A DNA stretch of 64,000 nucleotides from Thermodesulfovibrio thiophilus DSM 17215 (GCF_000423865.1 NZ_AUIU01000011.1:248001-312000); one strand, 5' to 3'; positions 13,820 to 22,423 are shown, counted from the first letter of the stretch. Notes: generated from the sequence alone by a model not told the origin. Translations and numbers: made by a program.

Positions 13820-16800
13820 TTATTGAGATATGTTTTTCACTTTTTCTTTGGGCATTGGTTTATAAAAAAGAAATCCCTGCACCATATCACATCCAATAGA
13901 TTTCAAGATTTCATACTGATCTTTATTTTCAACTCCCTCTGCCAGAGTAATTTTATCAAGTCTTTTTGCCAGATCTATAATTGTCTGGACAATGGCAAGA
14001 CTTTTCCTGTCTTTTATCATATCTCTGATGAATGCTATATCTATTTTAATTATATCAATGGGCAAATCTTTAAGATATGCAAGAGATGAATATCCTGTTC
14101 CAAAATCATCCATTGCAATTTTTGGAGGATTAGTTAATTTTTTAATACTTGAGATTAATTCTATTGCAAAATATGGATCTTCAATAAATATTCTTTCTGT
14201 GATCTCAAGTGTAAGCTTATTTCTAACTTCAACAGGAATATCTAAGATTTTTTTTATAAAATTTGCATTGTTAAAAGTTTTACCAGAAATATTAATTGAA
14301 ATGTTTGTCTTCCATTCTTTTATCTTTTCAATAGCTTCTTTAATTGTCCGATTTTCTAACATCATTAAGTATTGACTGTTTTCTATGTAGTCAATGAAAA
14401 AATCTGGATAATAAATTGTTCCATCTCTGTCAATAATTCTCATTAGTGCTTCAAATCCAGCAATTTGCAGACTGTTAGTGTAAAGATAAGGCTGATAATG
14501 GAAAACAAACAGGTTTTCATCAACAGCTTTTTTTACAATGGTAATAACATTCCATAATTTATCTGTTTCTTTTTCTATTTCAGGGTCAAAAAATTTAATA
14601 GTTCCTGCACCTTCTTTTTTTGCCTGTGATAGTGTTATATCTGCCCTTTCATAAAGAGTTGTGAATGATCTTCCATCTTTTGGGAATAAAGATATAGAAG
14701 CATTTATATTGAAAGAAATTGATTTTGTGCCTATTTGAACAATCGTGTTGTTTAACTCATATAGTTTAGAATAAACGTTATATATTTCATCAGTATCAAT
14801 TGTTAAACAGATTCCAAAACTATCAGATCCGATTCTTGAAATTATATTTGTCTGTCCAAAAATATTTATTAGTCTTTGTGCAAAACTTCTCAAAAGTTCA
14901 TCTCCTGCAGAAATTCCATGAATTTTATTAATATAAGTCATATTATATATATCAATTAATATAAATAAAATCAGACTAGAGGCTTCTTTCAATTTTAATG
15001 AAACAGTTGTAGCAAAACCATTAAGATTTAGAAGTCCTGTAAGAGCATCATAATTTTGAAGTGTTTTAATTCTTTCAGAAAGCACTATTTTTTCGGTAAT
15101 ATCACTTGCCACAGCAACAAATCTTAAAATATTACCAGGAAGTCTTATAGGAATAATTTTAAGGTCAACATGGAAAATTTCTCCATTCTTTTTCCTGTTA
15201 GGTGTTATTGCATTAAAAATTTTACCTGAGAGAATATTATTCCACATTTCTGTATAAAACTCTGGAGGATTGAGTCCTGATTTAAATATTCTGGGGTTTT
15301 TACCAATTAACTCCGCTTTTTTATATCCACTTATTTTTTCAACGGATTCGTTTACATAAACAATATTTCCATTTTCATCTGTAATAAGTAGCCAGATATC
15401 AGAATTTTTAATGGCCTCAGAGATAATGATGTCCTGCCTTATTTTTTCAACTTTTTCCAGTGCAAAAGATAAATCTTTCTGAATTTCTTTAAGTGAATCA
15501 ACTATGGATTCGGAGAAAAAATAAGGAAACTCAGAGTATATATTAAGCAGCGCAACAATTTTCCCGCTTTTTGAAAGCGGTATTGTACATGATGAAATTA
15601 AACCTTTTTTAATCAATTCAGTTATATAAAAACTATCTCTTGAATAAGTTCTTATATCAGGATTAATAACTATCTGACCTGTTTTTAGAGTTTCAATGTC
15701 TTTTTTGTCATATTGGATGTCTATTGCTTTAAAAAAAACGGAAAGATCTCCATAGTGAAATTTAGGAATTATTTTATTCTCATCTATAAGACTTACCCAT
15801 GCGAGTTTAAATCCCAGGTTTTCAACAAGGGCTTTACATATATTATGATAAATATCTTCCTCTGTAAAAGATTCAATAATAATTTTATTTGATTGTTTAA
15901 GAATCTCACGAAGATTTTCTGCATGTTTTTTTGAGGTAATATCATAAAAAACTATAAGCCCTGAATATATTCCTTTAAAAAATATTGTATTTGTTAAACA
16001 TTGTACATAAATAACAGACCCTTGTTTTTTTATATAACGAATTTCGTAAATCTGAGAGAATTTTTTTCCTCTGAGTCTTTTTTTATAGTTTTCAAAAACT
16101 TTTTTTCTGTCTTCATGATAAACAAAATCAAGACTGCTCATTTTATAAAGCTCTTCTTCGGTATAACCAAGCAGATTTATCGCGTAGTTATTTGCATATA
16201 TAACTTTTTCCTGATATATTATGATTCCCATATTGGGAGAATTGATAAATGCATTGACTATATCGTGATATGCCCAGTTTTGGAGCATCTGTTCTAGTTG
16301 TTTATATAGATTTCTCAGATTTTCAATCTCTTCATCTGTTGATTTTTCAATATCTTCAATTGACAATATTATATCTTTAAACTTTTTCATAGATGGATGG
16401 GCAAGAATATAATGAGGAATTGGAAAACAGAAATCTTCTGAAAAATTTATGTTTGTATAATTTTTTAACTCATCCAATTTTTCTGAATATATAAATCCTA
16501 TATCTGCAGAACCTTTTTCTACAAGATGTAAGACTTCCCTATGAGTATCAGCAAAAATCAGATGAAACTTCTCAAATTCTTTTTTATGAAATAAAAGAGG
16601 AAATAAAAAATATTTTTTGTTGATTAATGCTACATTAATTACATCTTTTTCAGAAAAATATTGTTTTGATGTTATACTGCAGAGAGCACTTTGTTCATTT
16701 TTAAATTTTCCTAAGATAAAATAACCTTTATCTAAAAGTTTTAAAGTAGAATCCGGATCAGTATAGAAAAAATGATATTCTTCTTGTTCAAGAGCACTTT

Positions 16801-16945
16801 CTTCTTCTGAAAAATTTTTAAATGTTATCAATTTTATTTCTTTTTTAAGACAGCAAGCAATTGAATATATTGCTTTTTGCAACTTACTGATATCTTTTTC
16901 AAAATCATTAGGACATAAAGCAAAAGATAAAATATTTTCGGACAT
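13820..16945 (-). CDS. PhnD-like/PAS/GAF/PAS/GGDEF(degenerate)/EAL cyclic-di-GMP phosphodiesterase
   Basis: 1041 residues with no signal peptide or membrane helix, so cytoplasmic. Apparent order: a PhnD-like ligand-binding fold (about 1-195), PAS (225-345), GAF (355-500), PAS (510-620), a GGDEF-type domain (630-790) and EAL (800-1040). The GGDEF signature is replaced by GSDSF (about 706-710), so cyclase activity is unlikely. The EAL domain keeps EALMR, the Asn of SINISG, the Glu of EITER, DDFGTGYSSL and AEGVE, so it should hydrolyse c-di-GMP. It is the last gene of the ODP-chemoreceptor operon, three bases after the receptor gene. Domain borders are estimates; the first domain is the least certain. 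Confidence 0.87.
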   Translation of the reverse strand: MSENILSFALCPNDFEKDISKLQKAIYSIACCLKKEIKLITFKNFSEEESALEQEEYHFFYTDPDSTLKLLDKGYFILGKFKNEQSALCSITSKQYFSEKDVINVALINKKYFLFPLLFHKKEFEKFHLIFADTHREVLHLVEKGSADIGFIYSEKLDELKNYTNINFSEDFCFPIPHYILAHPSMKKFKDIILSIEDIEKSTDEEIENLRNLYKQLEQMLQNWAYHDIVNAFINSPNMGIIIYQEKVIYANNYAINLLGYTEEELYKMSSLDFVYHEDRKKVFENYKKRLRGKKFSQIYEIRYIKKQGSVIYVQCLTNTIFFKGIYSGLIVFYDITSKKHAENLREILKQSNKIIIESFTEEDIYHNICKALVENLGFKLAWVSLIDENKIIPKFHYGDLSVFFKAIDIQYDKKDIETLKTGQIVINPDIRTYSRDSFYITELIKKGLISSCTIPLSKSGKIVALLNIYSEFPYFFSESIVDSLKEIQKDLSFALEKVEKIRQDIIISEAIKNSDIWLLITDENGNIVYVNESVEKISGYKKAELIGKNPRIFKSGLNPPEFYTEMWNNILSGKIFNAITPNRKKNGEIFHVDLKIIPIRLPGNILRFVAVASDITEKIVLSERIKTLQNYDALTGLLNLNGFATTVSLKLKEASSLILFILIDIYNMTYINKIHGISAGDELLRSFAQRLINIFGQTNIISRIGSDSFGICLTIDTDEIYNVYSKLYELNNTIVQIGTKSISFNINASISLFPKDGRSFTTLYERADITLSQAKKEGAGTIKFFDPEIEKETDKLWNVITIVKKAVDENLFVFHYQPYLYTNSLQIAGFEALMRIIDRDGTIYYPDFFIDYIENSQYLMMLENRTIKEAIEKIKEWKTNISINISGKTFNNANFIKKILDIPVEVRNKLTLEITERIFIEDPYFAIELISSIKKLTNPPKIAMDDFGTGYSSLAYLKDLPIDIIKIDIAFIRDMIKDRKSLAIVQTIIDLAKRLDKITLAEGVENKDQYEILKSIGCDMVQGFLFYKPMPKEKVKNISQ

Positions 16946-16948
16946 AGG

Positions 16949-17824
16949 TTAAAATTTAGTTATCTTTGAGATTTCGTCATTTACTTTTACAACCGTTGAA
17001 AAAACTTTGTATGTTTCAGTAAGCATGGATGCTGTATTTGTAACTCTCTTTGAAACATCTGTCAAAACCTGGCTCTGTTCTTCAATGGCTGTTGAAAGAG
17101 TATTAACAGCATCACCAACTGTATCAGACATGGTTTTTGTTCCTTCGAATGCTTTTCTTATATTTTTCATATCGTTTTCAATGTTAGAGAATAGTTCTTT
17201 TATTTTTTCTACTTCTCCAACAGCATATGTAACCCTGGTGCTCAGATCCCCAAGTATTTTGCTTATATCCTTAGTTAATGTTTCTGTTTTCTGAGAGAGT
17301 TTTCTAATTTCATCTGCAACAACTGCAAAACCTCTTCCTGCTTCTCCAACCCTTGCTGCTTCAATTGATGCATTTAGAGCAAGAAGATTTGTTTGATCTG
17401 CGACATCAGAGATAGATGTTACGATATTACCTATGTTTTCAGTAGCGTGTCCTAGATCTTTTATATTTGTAACAACCTCTATTATTTTTTCATTATGTGC
17501 TTCAATGTCTTTTACTCTCTTTTCAAGCTCTTTATCCATTGTTTCATTGTGTTTAACCATTTCCTGAACTTCTTCATTTATTGAAGCCACACTTTGTGAC
17601 ATGTCCCTTATCGTTGTATCAATCTCTTCCATAGCAGTGGCTATCGAAGAGACATCGTCTTTTATTCGTGAAAAATTGGAGTCTATTAATCCCATAGTAT
17701 TTGAAATTGTGGAACCTACAATATTTGATTTAATAAGACCTGAAGACAATATTTTAATAAGGGAAAGATTTGTATCTACATTTTTTTTTGTTAATATAGG
17801 TTTTTTATTTTTTTTAAAAAACAT
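16949..17824 (-). CDS. Soluble methyl-accepting chemotaxis-type signalling protein
   Basis: 291 residues from ATG 17824, which follows a strong AGGAGGG; an upstream in-frame start at 17869 lies inside the neighbouring gene. There is no membrane segment, HAMP or ligand domain. After a short Lys-rich N-terminus the protein is one long coiled coil with the conserved hairpin tip (about residues 144-178, containing [20 protein letters not shown]). It should act on CheA/CheW in the cytoplasm. With no sensor domain of its own, it probably receives its signal from the ODP-type diiron protein encoded 10 bases upstream, as described for an analogous pair in Treponema denticola. Confidence 0.88.
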
Positions 17825-17834
17825 ATTTTCCCTC

Positions 17835-18623
17835 CTATCCGTACAACTCATCAGAGATGTCAACACCACATCTTAAATTACCAAGCCAGCTGAAAAATCT
17901 CTCTATATGCTCTTTTTTATAGATAATTGCTCCATGCTGTGGAGCAATTATCTGGATATCAAGTCTGCTTATTCTGTTAAGATATTTTTTTATCACAGTG
18001 TTTGAAGCAAGATATCGTTTGTGAAAGCCCTCCATGAGTTTTAAATGGTTGTCAAAATCTTCAACATAGGTATATCTTTGTCCTTTTGAGAAGATTGCTG
18101 CTCCTATGTCTCCAGTAAAGAGTGTTTTAGAGCGAGAATCATATACATTAAAGTTTGCAATTGAATGCAGAAAATGTGCTGGTATTATTTCAAGAAAATC
18201 TCCAGAAGGTAACTGAATTCTACCACCTTTATCCTGTAATTTAACTACTCTACTGACATCAAATATTCCATAATGCGGAAGGAATCTGACCCACCACTCT
18301 GAAATATAAACTTTTGCTGGCGTGACACTGAGCCACAAGGCTACACCCGATGATACATCAGGATCCTGATGAGAGAAAAAAAGATGTTGAATTTTTTCAA
18401 GATCAAGATATCTAGAAACGTTGGCAACTACTCTGGGAAAAACATGAATACCACCTGGGTCCAGTATTACTCCGATTCCTTTGTTCTCAATCAAATACTG
18501 ATTGACCTGAACAAGTCCTTCTTCTTCATGTTCTTCCCAGCCAAGCCAGATAAATTTATGCATACCATCATCATAAATAACATCTCCTCTTACAATATCA
18601 ACCTCTTTGTTTAGTACTGCCAT
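17835..18623 (-). CDS. ODP-type diiron protein (metallo-beta-lactamase fold)
   Basis: 262 residues, similar to the lactamase-like half of flavodiiron proteins but lacking flavodoxin and rubredoxin domains. Candidate iron ligands are H85, D87 and D89 ([10 protein letters not shown]), H153, D172 (FTGDIG) and H230 (APQHG). The usual HxExDH is altered to HxDxDV. This fits the oxygen-binding diiron proteins (ODP) that act as oxygen/iron sensors for chemotaxis. The gene has GGAGG before its ATG and begins an operon with a sensorless chemoreceptor and an EAL protein. A hydrolase or an NO/O2 reductase without its flavin domain are alternatives. Confidence 0.82.
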
Positions 18624-18655
18624 AATAATTCCTCCAATAATGATTTATATCTAAA

Positions 18656-18684
18656 ATTTTACCAGAAAAAGCTATTCTTTGTAA
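18656..18684 (-). promoter_or_regulatory. Promoter of the ODP-chemoreceptor-EAL operon
   Basis: On the - strand TTACAA (18684-18679) and TAAAAT (18661-18656) are separated by exactly 17 bases. The start codon at 18623 follows a leader of about 25 bases containing GGAGG. The site lies between the stop of the multiheme gene and the ODP gene, so the sensor operon can be expressed apart from the upstream cytochrome operon. Confidence 0.6.
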
Positions 18685-18695
18685 TTTTTTATTAG

Positions 18696-21356
18696 TTAAT
18701 AGTTATTTAAAAGTGCCTTGTTTCTGAAAGTTCTGATCATATTTGCGTGATGCATGGACGTATTCATTTTAATTTTATGGCATACTTCGCATTTAACCTC
18801 TCCTCCAATTGGCAAAGGCATTCCCTGATACTGCATTGCCTGAATGTTGTCTCTGTTTGTTCCATATGGGTTGAATGCAGGATATATTGCATGGGTGGAG
18901 CTGTGGCAGGCAATACAGGGAATTCTATTCATGTTTTCTTTTTTTGTTTTAAAAAGCATATTAATGTTAGCTGTCCACTTATTAAATCCATTTGATGAGT
19001 TTAAAGGTTTTTGAAATCCTGTATGACATCCAAGACAGTCTGGCTCATTTATCCATGGTTTGCGAGCATTTATCTCATAAAGTGGAGTTTCTGGATTAAG
19101 GTTTTTTATTAAAATGTTAGCTGATCTTGAGTTTTTCTGGCCCAGCAGAAGAGCTGTGGCATGTTCATGAAGACTTCCATGGCATTGAGTGCATTGAATG
19201 CCAAGTCTGGAATGAATATCACGATTGCATCTTGTATTTCCCTGAGGATCATTGGGATGACATAGATTGCAAGCTCTTGCGTCTCTGTATGGAATGTAGT
19301 TTGCGTGCCAAGCATGTATGGAAACTGAAAAGCTATTGTGTCCTTTAACTCCTTTTGAACCAACAGCTACATCTTCATGACAACTCTGACAGAGGATCGG
19401 CTTACCTCTTAATGCTGATTGATAAAGTTTTGTTTTATTATGCCTGTCATGTGTTTTAAGAATATTTATTGCTGTTTCATCTGATATGCCTGAGATTCCA
19501 TTCCACCGCCATCCACCTTCATGACATATCATGCATCTTAATTCAGTTGAAACCGGAGCAACAACTTTTGTTTTTTGCAATATTATCCCTCTATTTTTGT
19601 CTATTGCCTGTATATCAAAAACAGGATATGGATTATATGTTCCATCATCATTGTATGGTACAACAGGCAAAGCCTTGGCAATGAAAACCCCATTTTGTTC
19701 ATCAAGGTCAAATAAACCATGAAGTCCTTTTTCTGTTATTCCCACATTTTCTGGAAAATTTTTGCCGAAATAAAACTCAGCATAATTCCAGAATTTCACA
19801 TGTTTTGATGGATTTTCAAAACCCTTTTCAATCTGATATCTAATTTGAACTCCTGTAGTTATTATCTCTGGTTTTGCACCGCGCTTAATCAATAATGCCT
19901 CGAGATTATTTGCAGGAGGTAAGAATATGAACCATCTGTCAGAATCACTAAGGCAATGCATTCCAAGATCGTTCCACACAAGAAGAATGTATTCGTCCTT
20001 TGATGCATTAAATGAAGGAATCTCTATTTTTTCCTCTTTAATTTTGTAGCTCATCAAAGGCAAAGTTGCATCTTTATGATGCAATCCCTTAACAATAAAA
20101 GTTGCCAAAGCTTCTATCTCCTTTTCAGTGCCAATGAATTTTGGCATATAATCAAGGACTTTTCCCTGCCCATAAAGTTGTGTAAGAACTCCAAAATACG
20201 TAAATCCTCTGGTTTTCTCAATGATGTCATTTTTAACTCCTCCCACTGTATGGCAGCTAAGACATTGAAGATTAAAAATCTCTCTGCCAGTCTCAAGTTT
20301 ATTTTCTTCTGTCATTTCCTTGATTTTTGACCATTTCGCATATTTTAATAATCCTTCTTTATTGAGTCTTTCCTCGTCAGACACCATTATTGATGAAGAA
20401 TACATATATTCATAAATAACGTAGGGTTTTCTTGCATATTCCCGCATATACTCAAATCCACCAATCCATGCAAGTCCGATCATCAGTAGAATAAATACGG
20501 TAATTTGCTGAAGTTTTCTTGAGGTTTTGAAAATAAACAATATGGCAAGTAAATATAGCAAAACTGTAGATATGATAAATACAGTAACTGTATTACCTGT
20601 CTGTCTGTTTAACCAGAAGTTTGTTATTCTTGCATTCTCAGGAATAGCATAAAAATACCAGAAACCTGAAAGAATAAGAAATGGTAATGGAATATAAAGC
20701 CATTTTGCACAATATTTAAGAAGTTGTGTTTTGAAGCCACTTTCAGGCAAAAATACAGCTGTAACAAAACCAAAAAGTCCTGCAAACATTACGCAGATTC
20801 CTGTTCTGAAGAGCAGAGCTGGTAAATTTGTGGGATTAAAAAACCCATCCCAGAAGCTGAAAGTTTTTAACCAATCTCCTGGTGTAAGCATAAATGTAAT
20901 TATTCCATTAATTACAAAAAGACTTAACCATGCTGATACTGCATAGATAAAAGCTACTCTGAGCCTGAATCTCTCTGAAAGCATTTCAAATTTATAGTGA
21001 TAGAGTAAAAGAGATATAATTTCAACCATGAAAAATACCCACTCAATAGCCCATGCAAACACAAAGTTATGTATGAGAATTGATGTTGCCCAAGGGTTTG
21101 ACAGGGCAATTATAAACCAAATACCAACTCCAGATACTCCTCCGAAAACCATTGTAAGTAAAAGGAAAAACCAGATATGTTTTCTGACATAGTCCCTGAG
21201 TTCGGGATTCTTTTCTTTCACACTTTTTAAATCAGTAAGCCATAAAAATATCCCGCCACCCACTGCAAAATGAGATATAAAAACATGAAGAACGGCGATT
21301 ATAGCAATTAATGTTCCAGAGTTAAGATAATAAAGCTCCCAGACCGGATAGTTCAT
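18696..21356 (-). CDS. Cytochrome bd-like membrane subunit fused to an eight-heme cytochrome c
   Basis: 886 residues. Residues 1-305 contain about eight membrane helices resembling the CydA-like subunit of bd-type oxidases. A monoheme cytochrome c-like segment follows (CLSCH at 365-369), then a multiheme region with CxxCH at 608, 656, 696, 722, 774, 814 and 856, giving eight heme c sites. Attachment of c-type heme places the tail on the periplasmic side. Relatives in Nitrospira have been proposed as bd-like oxidases, but the substrate is unproven; quinol-cytochrome c electron exchange is equally possible. It overlaps the partner membrane subunit by 4 bases (ATGA). Confidence 0.83.
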   Translation of the reverse strand: MNYPVWELYYLNSGTLIAIIAVLHVFISHFAVGGGIFLWLTDLKSVKEKNPELRDYVRKHIWFFLLLTMVFGGVSGVGIWFIIALSNPWATSILIHNFVFAWAIEWVFFMVEIISLLLYHYKFEMLSERFRLRVAFIYAVSAWLSLFVINGIITFMLTPGDWLKTFSFWDGFFNPTNLPALLFRTGICVMFAGLFGFVTAVFLPESGFKTQLLKYCAKWLYIPLPFLILSGFWYFYAIPENARITNFWLNRQTGNTVTVFIISTVLLYLLAILFIFKTSRKLQQITVFILLMIGLAWIGGFEYMREYARKPYVIYEYMYSSSIMVSDEERLNKEGLLKYAKWSKIKEMTEENKLETGREIFNLQCLSCHTVGGVKNDIIEKTRGFTYFGVLTQLYGQGKVLDYMPKFIGTEKEIEALATFIVKGLHHKDATLPLMSYKIKEEKIEIPSFNASKDEYILLVWNDLGMHCLSDSDRWFIFLPPANNLEALLIKRGAKPEIITTGVQIRYQIEKGFENPSKHVKFWNYAEFYFGKNFPENVGITEKGLHGLFDLDEQNGVFIAKALPVVPYNDDGTYNPYPVFDIQAIDKNRGIILQKTKVVAPVSTELRCMICHEGGWRWNGISGISDETAINILKTHDRHNKTKLYQSALRGKPILCQSCHEDVAVGSKGVKGHNSFSVSIHAWHANYIPYRDARACNLCHPNDPQGNTRCNRDIHSRLGIQCTQCHGSLHEHATALLLGQKNSRSANILIKNLNPETPLYEINARKPWINEPDCLGCHTGFQKPLNSSNGFNKWTANINMLFKTKKENMNRIPCIACHSSTHAIYPAFNPYGTNRDNIQAMQYQGMPLPIGGEVKCEVCHKIKMNTSMHHANMIRTFRNKALLNNY

Positions 21357-22423
21357 TTTGTCACACTCTTTGAAAAAGCTGTTTTAAGCAGACAGGCTAT
21401 GACAGTTAAACCGATAATAAGGACGATCACAAAAATAATAAACACATCCCACTGTGGCGTCATCATTAACCAGGAAAGGTTAAAATTATCTCCAAGTTGA
21501 AAAATTCTTAGATTATATCGATTAATTACCATTGAAGCAATGGTAGCCAGTGTAAAAACTGCGGTAGCAGTTACATTTTCTCTGAGTCCGTAAATAAAGC
21601 TAATTATGGCAAAGGTTATACCAGAAACAAATACTGTAGTTGCAATTGGATCATCTCCCATGAACTTTAGCATAATACTTTTTTGGAGGCTTAAAAGAAA
21701 AACTATGCCAATCATAATTTGTAGCAATGTCGAATAACTGAAAATTTTCAAACCTTCTTTGATTTTTGATGTTTTCACTGCGTTATCAAGATTTCTTCTG
21801 AATTTGTAATAAATAGCATAAAAAAGCCCACCAATAGCAAAGGATGCAACAAGAAAATGAAAATATCTTGCAAAGATAGTTAATTCATCGAGGATTATAA
21901 TTGTTCCTGACCTGTTTGTAAAATATCTGTTCCATTTTTGAGGCAATTCCATGAGAGATATGTTGTTAACAAAAATAAAAGAGATGTAAAAAATAGTCAG
22001 AACAACTAGCAATAGAGCTATTTTGGCAAACTTTGAAGTTTCAAACTTTCTGTAGTGAAAATACGCAGCATAATAGGCAAGAATCAGCAGAGGTATGATC
22101 GAAATCCAGAATGTTCCTATTAGTATTGAACTTGTATAGAAAAGATTTCCAAAAACAACCTGAATAAATAAGAGTGCTGGTATTGCCATGTTTATCGCAA
22201 TAGCAAAAAGAATGGGAATTTTTTGTGCAAGGGGTTTATTTAAATCAATAAAATCAGTCTCTTTCTCGGTTTTAATCCATTTATAAAAAAGAACGACACT
22301 TATCCCCAAAATTGAATTGATCAGTAAGATATGAATGAAGAAAAAAAACTGTTCTAAAACAATTAAAATCCAGGCAGGTACTGGAAGTGTTTCAGGGTAG
22401 GGTATCAGAGGATTTATATTCAT
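21353..22423 (-). CDS. Polytopic membrane subunit of the bd-like/octaheme complex
   Basis: 356 residues with about nine hydrophobic helices and no CxxCH motif. The N-terminus (PVPAWILIVLEQFFFFIHILL) has the same general plan as the CydA-like half of its partner, and His residues in the first helix and in ARYFHFL could serve as heme b ligands. It is the first gene of a two-gene operon and is probably the partner subunit, as CydB is to CydA. The start codon has no Shine-Dalgarno sequence and lies 8 bases after a consensus -10 box, so the mRNA is probably near-leaderless. The family is not firmly recognised. Confidence 0.72.
   Translation of the reverse strand: MNINPLIPYPETLPVPAWILIVLEQFFFFIHILLINSILGISVVLFYKWIKTEKETDFIDLNKPLAQKIPILFAIAINMAIPALLFIQVVFGNLFYTSSILIGTFWISIIPLLILAYYAAYFHYRKFETSKFAKIALLLVVLTIFYISFIFVNNISLMELPQKWNRYFTNRSGTIIILDELTIFARYFHFLVASFAIGGLFYAIYYKFRRNLDNAVKTSKIKEGLKIFSYSTLLQIMIGIVFLLSLQKSIMLKFMGDDPIATTVFVSGITFAIISFIYGLRENVTATAVFTLATIASMVINRYNLRIFQLGDNFNLSWLMMTPQWDVFIIFVIVLIIGLTVIACLLKTAFSKSVTK

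Follow-up and report, generated by a model that had tools for sequence, protein, structure and literature searches.

The oxygen-binding diiron protein (ODP) TDE2498 of Treponema denticola works with a cytoplasmic chemoreceptor, TDE2496 (PMC7666581). As summarized in PMC7319448, Muok et al. (2019) found ODP and receptor genes sharing operons in two alternative orders, and found ODPs both alongside further signal-transduction genes and as fusions to signaling domains. Here we describe a three-gene cassette of Thermodesulfovibrio thiophilus DSM 17215, contained in a 64,000-nt stretch of its genome (GCF_000423865.1, NZ_AUIU01000011.1:248001-312000; hereafter the window), which encodes an ODP, a chemoreceptor lacking a sensor domain, and a multidomain EAL protein predicted to break down cyclic di-GMP (c-di-GMP). 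We propose that the operon serves oxygen/redox responses through two outputs, chemotaxis through the ODP and receptor and c-di-GMP breakdown through the EAL protein with its PAS_B domain as input, a reading that we consider evenly balanced between right and wrong.

The genes run in the order ODP, receptor, EAL protein on the minus strand, separated by 10 nt and then 3 nt, and hydropathy analysis found no transmembrane segment in any of the three products. The original prediction, made from the window sequence, had described three adjacent open reading frames (ORFs) with 10- and 3-base spacers, and strands, ORFs, and gaps were all verified. The first product matches PF19583 (E=6.8e-74; 248.4 bits against a curated cut-off of 27.2) and aligns over nearly its full length with PDB entries 6qrq (E=3.2e-101) and 6qnm (E=5.7e-97), which we take to come from T. 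denticola and Thermotoga maritima, respectively (see also PMC7785958). The diiron ligands proposed earlier, H85, D87, and D89 (H-x-D-x-D), H153, D172, and H230, stand at the positions given for them, and the ODP-typical Q229 is additionally present; Gln in place of a motif-2 His is a hallmark of ODPs (PMC7785958). All seven residues are common to 65/65 aligned ODPs. We compared ODP neighborhoods sampled within the host phylum, probably Nitrospirota judging by gene content, and built a tree of 67 ODPs, in which the T. denticola and T. maritima rows are partial and taken from pairwise alignment (the T. maritima row with a one-residue slip); there, the 14 cassette ODPs stay together within a clade of receptor-linked ODPs to which those of T. 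denticola and T. maritima belong as well (support 95/89). Judged by its sequence, the 262-aa protein is a true ODP of this characterized clade.

Checking gene order in related genomes, as the original prediction had proposed, we found the triple kept in 14/14 genomes with this type of ODP: all 13 congeneric genomes that encode a true ODP, counting that of the window, plus G230 from a different family. Identity to the window proteins is 79–84% for the ODP, 80–86% for the receptor, and 53–65% for the EAL protein, whose reading frame is split in three genomes (G166, G205, and G093). The break in G166 (L036, 5135-8262) is a frame change between GGDEF and EAL, for which sequencing error and real loss are indistinguishable. 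The flanks vary among genomes while the three genes stay together: a cytochrome gene pair lies upstream in 10/14 cassette genomes (one seen partially), and downstream there is a radical-SAM gene (Pfam read in G052) or a same-sized counterpart in 6 and other genes elsewhere, contig permitting. With the order kept in 14/14 genomes and the flanks varied, linkage of the cassette exceeds chance. The three genes are also jointly absent from one congener, G075 (99% complete, several chemoreceptors), which has no ODP and where the best receptor and EAL matches reach just 37% and 31%, so that neither protein has a close orthologue there; two further genomes of the genus without an ODP are 72% and 56% complete and hence uninformative on absence. 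No similar DNA was found in plasmids. ODP relatives occur on Proteobacteria plasmid records, one of them overlapped by a chemotaxis gene.

In the receptor, Pfam finds the signaling domain (MCPsignal, E=2.4e-37) and no sensor domain, which together with the hydropathy result agrees with the earlier description of a soluble receptor without a ligand domain. It holds the conserved CheA/CheW-contact tip, which is identical in 7/8 other receptors of the genome and near-identical in the eighth (the genome encodes nine chemoreceptors), and six CheW-domain matches were found genome-wide, some within reading frames that could accommodate CheA. Sister ODPs lie inside chemotaxis clusters, arranged in G120 as cheA-cheW-MCP-MCP-ODP-cheR-cheD-cheB (MCP, methyl-accepting chemotaxis protein) and in the g3 genomes as cheA, cheW/cheZ, MCP, cheB, ODP, and receptor, followed by an HD-GYP gene. 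At loci L045-L048, the chemotaxis cluster with ODP and receptor extends to the HD-GYP gene (Pfam in L045, homologues in L046-L048). Because of its homology to the T. denticola pair, the route from ODP through receptor to CheA would be the best-supported arm of the proposed unit.

The third product is a multi-sensor EAL protein, as had been claimed, and additionally contains a degenerate GGDEF domain and a cytoplasmic PhnD-like domain. The EAL catalytic motifs (EAL, NIS, EITER, DDFG, KID, EGVE, and QG) are intact, and the GG[DE]EF active-site motif is replaced by GSDSF, with the GGDEF motif lost in every orthologue read; the protein is therefore likely a c-di-GMP phosphodiesterase in which GGDEF has no more than a regulatory role. 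No PF00563 match other than its EAL domain was found in the genome, which also has 6 GGDEF matches (that of the cassette included) and 3 HD-GYP-type matches. For the PhnD-like domain, PF12974 scores above cut-off in orthologues (42.8 bits in L041/G047; also L033), and Foldseek matched a structural model to binding proteins with probability 1.00 at template modeling (TM) scores of just 0.3–0.45. The fold appears binding-protein-like, and the model, made from two sequences (predicted local distance difference test, pLDDT, 69.6), is too weak to name a ligand.

Among the domains of the EAL protein, PAS_B evolves most slowly, with 81% mean identity among orthologues compared with 45–64% for the other domains and 85% for the ODP and receptor. 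The G052 orthologue consists of PAS_B-GGDEF-EAL, with PhnD-like, PAS_A, and GAF domains missing. Against the PDB, PAS_B scores best with 3ewk, which we take to be the flavin-containing protein MmoS, NifL PAS1 (2gj3), full NifL (9qq6), and Aer (8dik). W568 and N583 are invariant among orthologues. The NifL residue opposite N583 in the alignment is Asn102, and we equate N583 with the Asn that binds flavin in AxDGC2 and RmcA (PMC12540587). PAS_B is most likely the input of the EAL protein, which may sense redox by itself through this domain, and the conservation of PAS_B, its retention in G052, and its likeness to flavin PAS domains favor two parallel oxygen/redox sensors in one operon.

In the mechanism that we propose, the ODP diiron site would bind O2, as the peroxo adduct expected of an ODP, or load or lose iron, and the state of the ODP would be passed to the sensorless cytoplasmic receptor, which, placed in a CheA/CheW array, would bias swimming as in T. 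denticola. The EAL phosphodiesterase would take its input at PAS_B, which probably senses redox through a flavin as NifL, Aer, and RmcA do. Oxidizing conditions would then change swimming direction and also lower c-di-GMP through the only EAL enzyme of the genome; the O2 or iron signal, the phosphodiesterase activity, and the direction of the response are parts that we infer. We favor this two-output reading because the ODP ligands are invariant, the protein falls in the T. denticola/T. maritima clade, and sister ODPs lie in chemotaxis clusters; because the receptor tip is common to the receptors of the genome, CheW/CheA-type genes are present, and the cassette is conserved where this ODP occurs and its genes are jointly absent from G075; and because the sole EAL domain has intact motifs and PAS_B is conserved and flavin-PAS-like.

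Elsewhere in the phylum, ODPs meet c-di-GMP enzymes in other arrangements. A separate clade of 11 ODPs (support 100/100; families f6 and f28) has a GGDEF-EAL gene downstream of the ODP in nearly all cases and no receptor. At L056-L061, L071, and L093-L095, the gene directly after the ODP encodes a GGDEF-EAL protein whose N-terminal ~280 aa are conserved and unannotated, again with no receptor, and one genome (G037) has two ODPs, one beside a chemoreceptor and the other beside an EAL gene (L070, L071). In a third, distant group, the ODP is fused to GGDEF in one protein with an intact GGEEF motif (L062:1977-3746, L063:7899-9650, L064:9290-11068), making these fusions candidate single-protein O2-controlled diguanylate cyclases. 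Taken together, these arrangements indicate that links between ODP and c-di-GMP enzymes arose several times, the partners differing in architecture. Other partners were also seen: the gene for a divergent ODP at L086 shares 8 nt with that of a PAS histidine kinase, and more large PAS proteins are encoded downstream; at L073, a Roadblock/LC7 protein precedes the ODP and a large PAS protein follows it.

Several observations weigh against the two-output reading and lend themselves to others. In PAS_B, L, P, and F stand where NifL has the flavin contacts S39, E70, and Y110, so that flavin binding by this domain, as in the redox PAS domains of NifL, Aer, and RmcA, is likely and not more; signals of another kind could enter through the PhnD-like, PAS_A, and GAF domains; and in G166 the EAL gene is frame-broken, whereas the adjoining ODP and receptor genes are intact. 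The EAL gene might then be merely co-expressed, needed in the same conditions and answering another cue (through the PhnD-like ligand, GAF, or PAS_A) with no signal from the ODP, which would suit its four potential input domains, the fast divergence of the protein outside PAS_B, and the G166 break. However, the sole strongly constrained domain, PAS_B, resembles redox PAS domains, the three domains that would receive the other cue are missing in G052, and the linkage outlasts repeated changes of the flanks, and we think co-expression without signaling unlikely. A more radical alternative makes the metallo-β-lactamase (MBL)-fold protein a protective O2- or NO-reducing enzyme of the flavodiiron type instead of a sensor. 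The cassette protein does distantly resemble flavodiiron proteins, but it is a stand-alone MBL domain (Pfam gives ODP/Lactamase_B only) without a flavodoxin domain, its ligands are H-x-D-x-D plus QH as in ODPs, and its linkage to the receptor is conserved; the genome encodes a separate 405-aa flavodiiron-type protein that has H-x-E-x-D-H and no Gln. We rejected a flavodiiron identity for the ODP on the ligand pattern and the missing flavodoxin domain, and consider the enzyme reading very improbable.

The same ODP could instead be the input to both outputs, docking with the receptor as well as with the EAL protein, perhaps at PAS_B, so that one diiron signal would directly set CheA activity and c-di-GMP hydrolysis. 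Conservation of the cassette and the joint absence of its genes in G075 are in keeping with such sharing, as are the ODPs that elsewhere pair with GGDEF-EAL proteins without a receptor or are fused to GGDEF; PAS_B is also as slow-evolving as the ODP and receptor, as a docking surface might be, and could itself be the contact surface for the ODP. By contrast, the EAL protein has sensor domains of its own, and a profile comparison of the receptor, the GGDEF-EAL partners, the fusion linkers, and the cassette EAL protein found no common docking region beyond trivial overlap. The cassette ODP moreover groups with receptor-linked and not with EAL-paired ODPs, so any direct hold on the EAL protein would have been acquired separately. 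We regard a shared input as a minority possibility. It corresponds to the original prediction that one ODP signal could feed chemotaxis and c-di-GMP breakdown, of which the true ODP, the sensorless receptor, and the conserved EAL linkage held up; ODP control of the EAL protein was not established, given the protein's own PAS_B, the lack of a shared docking region, and the G166 break. Our preferred two-output reading gives each output a sensor of its own.

A single transcript for the three genes, which we also infer, would start upstream of the ODP gene. The original prediction had placed a promoter at 18656-18684, where the sequence matches the consensus at 9/12 positions; with 40 such matches found against 42.8 expected in shuffled sequence, this match is at chance level, and we rejected the consensus scan as uninformative on its own. 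The −10 half fared better, as it falls within a TGn?TAAAAT element that lies 36–44 nt before the ODP start codon in 9/14 cassette genomes (shuffled mean 0.2, maximum 2), an element chosen post hoc and carried by several genomes that share the upstream gene by descent. The carriers include two genomes with different upstream genes. Conservation of this element across genomes makes a promoter near 18656 plausible. Coordinates of these features are collected below.

Features of the cassette and its immediate upstream context, in window coordinates
Feature	Position	Strand	Basis
ODP gene, 262 aa	17835..18623	minus	Pfam and PDB sequence matches
Chemoreceptor gene, 291 aa, ATG start	16949..17824	minus	MCPsignal match, hydropathy, tip comparison
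EAL protein gene, 1041 aa: PhnD-like, PAS_A, GAF, PAS_B, degenerate GGDEF, EAL	13820..16945	minus	Pfam
PhnD-like / type-2 periplasmic-binding-protein fold, cytoplasmic, aa 1-195 of EAL protein	16361..16945	minus	PF12974, Foldseek
PAS_B, aa 504-625 of EAL protein	15071..15436	minus	Orthologue identity, PDB matches
Degenerate GGDEF domain (GSDSF), predicted non-cyclase	14591..15061	minus	Motif reading
Predicted EAL phosphodiesterase domain, catalytic motifs intact	13823..14551	minus	Motif reading
TGGTAAAAT, extended −10-like element	18656..18664	minus	Counterpart in 9/14 cassette genomes
GGAGG ribosome-binding site of ODP gene	18631..18635	minus	Read directly from sequence
Upstream gene pair, 356-aa and 886-aa proteins; context, not cassette core	18696..22423	minus	Upstream in 10/14 cassette genomes

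Of the upstream pair, the 886-aa protein resembles bd-I at its N-terminus (with a score slightly below cut-off), is multihaem at its C-terminus, and also has a cbb3-type cytochrome c domain, and the 356-aa protein has no Pfam match; together they possibly form an O2- or NO-related quinol complex.

c-di-GMP is a "stop swimming" signal, and aerotaxis and c-di-GMP control are usually treated as separate circuits. Here, a conserved unit of an anaerobe joins a predicted oxygen-sensing receptor pair to the only EAL enzyme of the genome, which suggests that steering and the choice to settle or swim are tied to one oxygen/redox cue. In its strongest and, to us, doubtful form, one diiron ODP would physically control both the receptor array and the only EAL phosphodiesterase, a single O2 or iron event setting swimming direction and the motile-sessile switch. 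Were the ODP a shared sensor in this way, it would serve c-di-GMP enzymes generally as an input module, in line with the ODP and GGDEF-EAL pairs and the ODP-GGDEF fusions. The cassette offers a compact, testable case of a diiron sensor rewired between chemotaxis and second-messenger output, and the fusions a direct route to asking whether ODP-bound O2 switches c-di-GMP synthesis.

We found no description of the ODP-receptor-EAL triple in the literature that could be searched, which for Muok et al. (2019) meant the summary in PMC7319448, and a review from 2022 on how sensory signals reach c-di-GMP (PMC8846402) does not contain the terms ODP, lactamase, or diiron. The novelty claimed in the original prediction thus narrows to the exact triple, since ODP operons with receptors or signaling genes, and fusions, had already been reported (PMC7319448). 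Those operons likewise have ODPs recruited to several signaling pathways; unlike the cassette, they include, as far as the summary in PMC7319448 goes, no named c-di-GMP enzyme and no unit of receptor and c-di-GMP enzyme. The EAL protein resembles RmcA of P. aeruginosa and AxDGC2 in its PAS domains, the last of which, before GGDEF-EAL, is the redox input, and resembles RmcA further in combining a Venus-flytrap-type domain, a regulatory GGDEF, and phosphodiesterase output (PMC12540587). What sets it apart is a binding-protein-like domain that sits in the cytoplasm, a GGDEF domain without its motif, and a gene linked to those for an ODP and a receptor. Bacterial hemerythrins, which fold as four-helix bundles, are unrelated in fold to ODP, and in their systems the sensor is fused to one output. 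Vc Bhr-DGC, Ferrovum Bhr-HD-GYP, and DcrH nevertheless likewise connect a diiron O2/redox sensor to c-di-GMP or chemotaxis (PMC8846402, PMC13401364). In E. coli, DosC-DosP (DgcO-PdeO) also places c-di-GMP synthesis and breakdown under O2 control through partner proteins (PMC8846402), but with haem sensors and no chemoreceptor. Closest are the T. denticola and T. maritima ODPs, which share family, clade, and ligand set with the cassette ODP, and in T. denticola a sensorless soluble receptor is genetically coupled to the ODP as it is here (PMC7666581); unlike in either species, the conserved unit in Thermodesulfovibrio has a third gene, for a predicted EAL phosphodiesterase.

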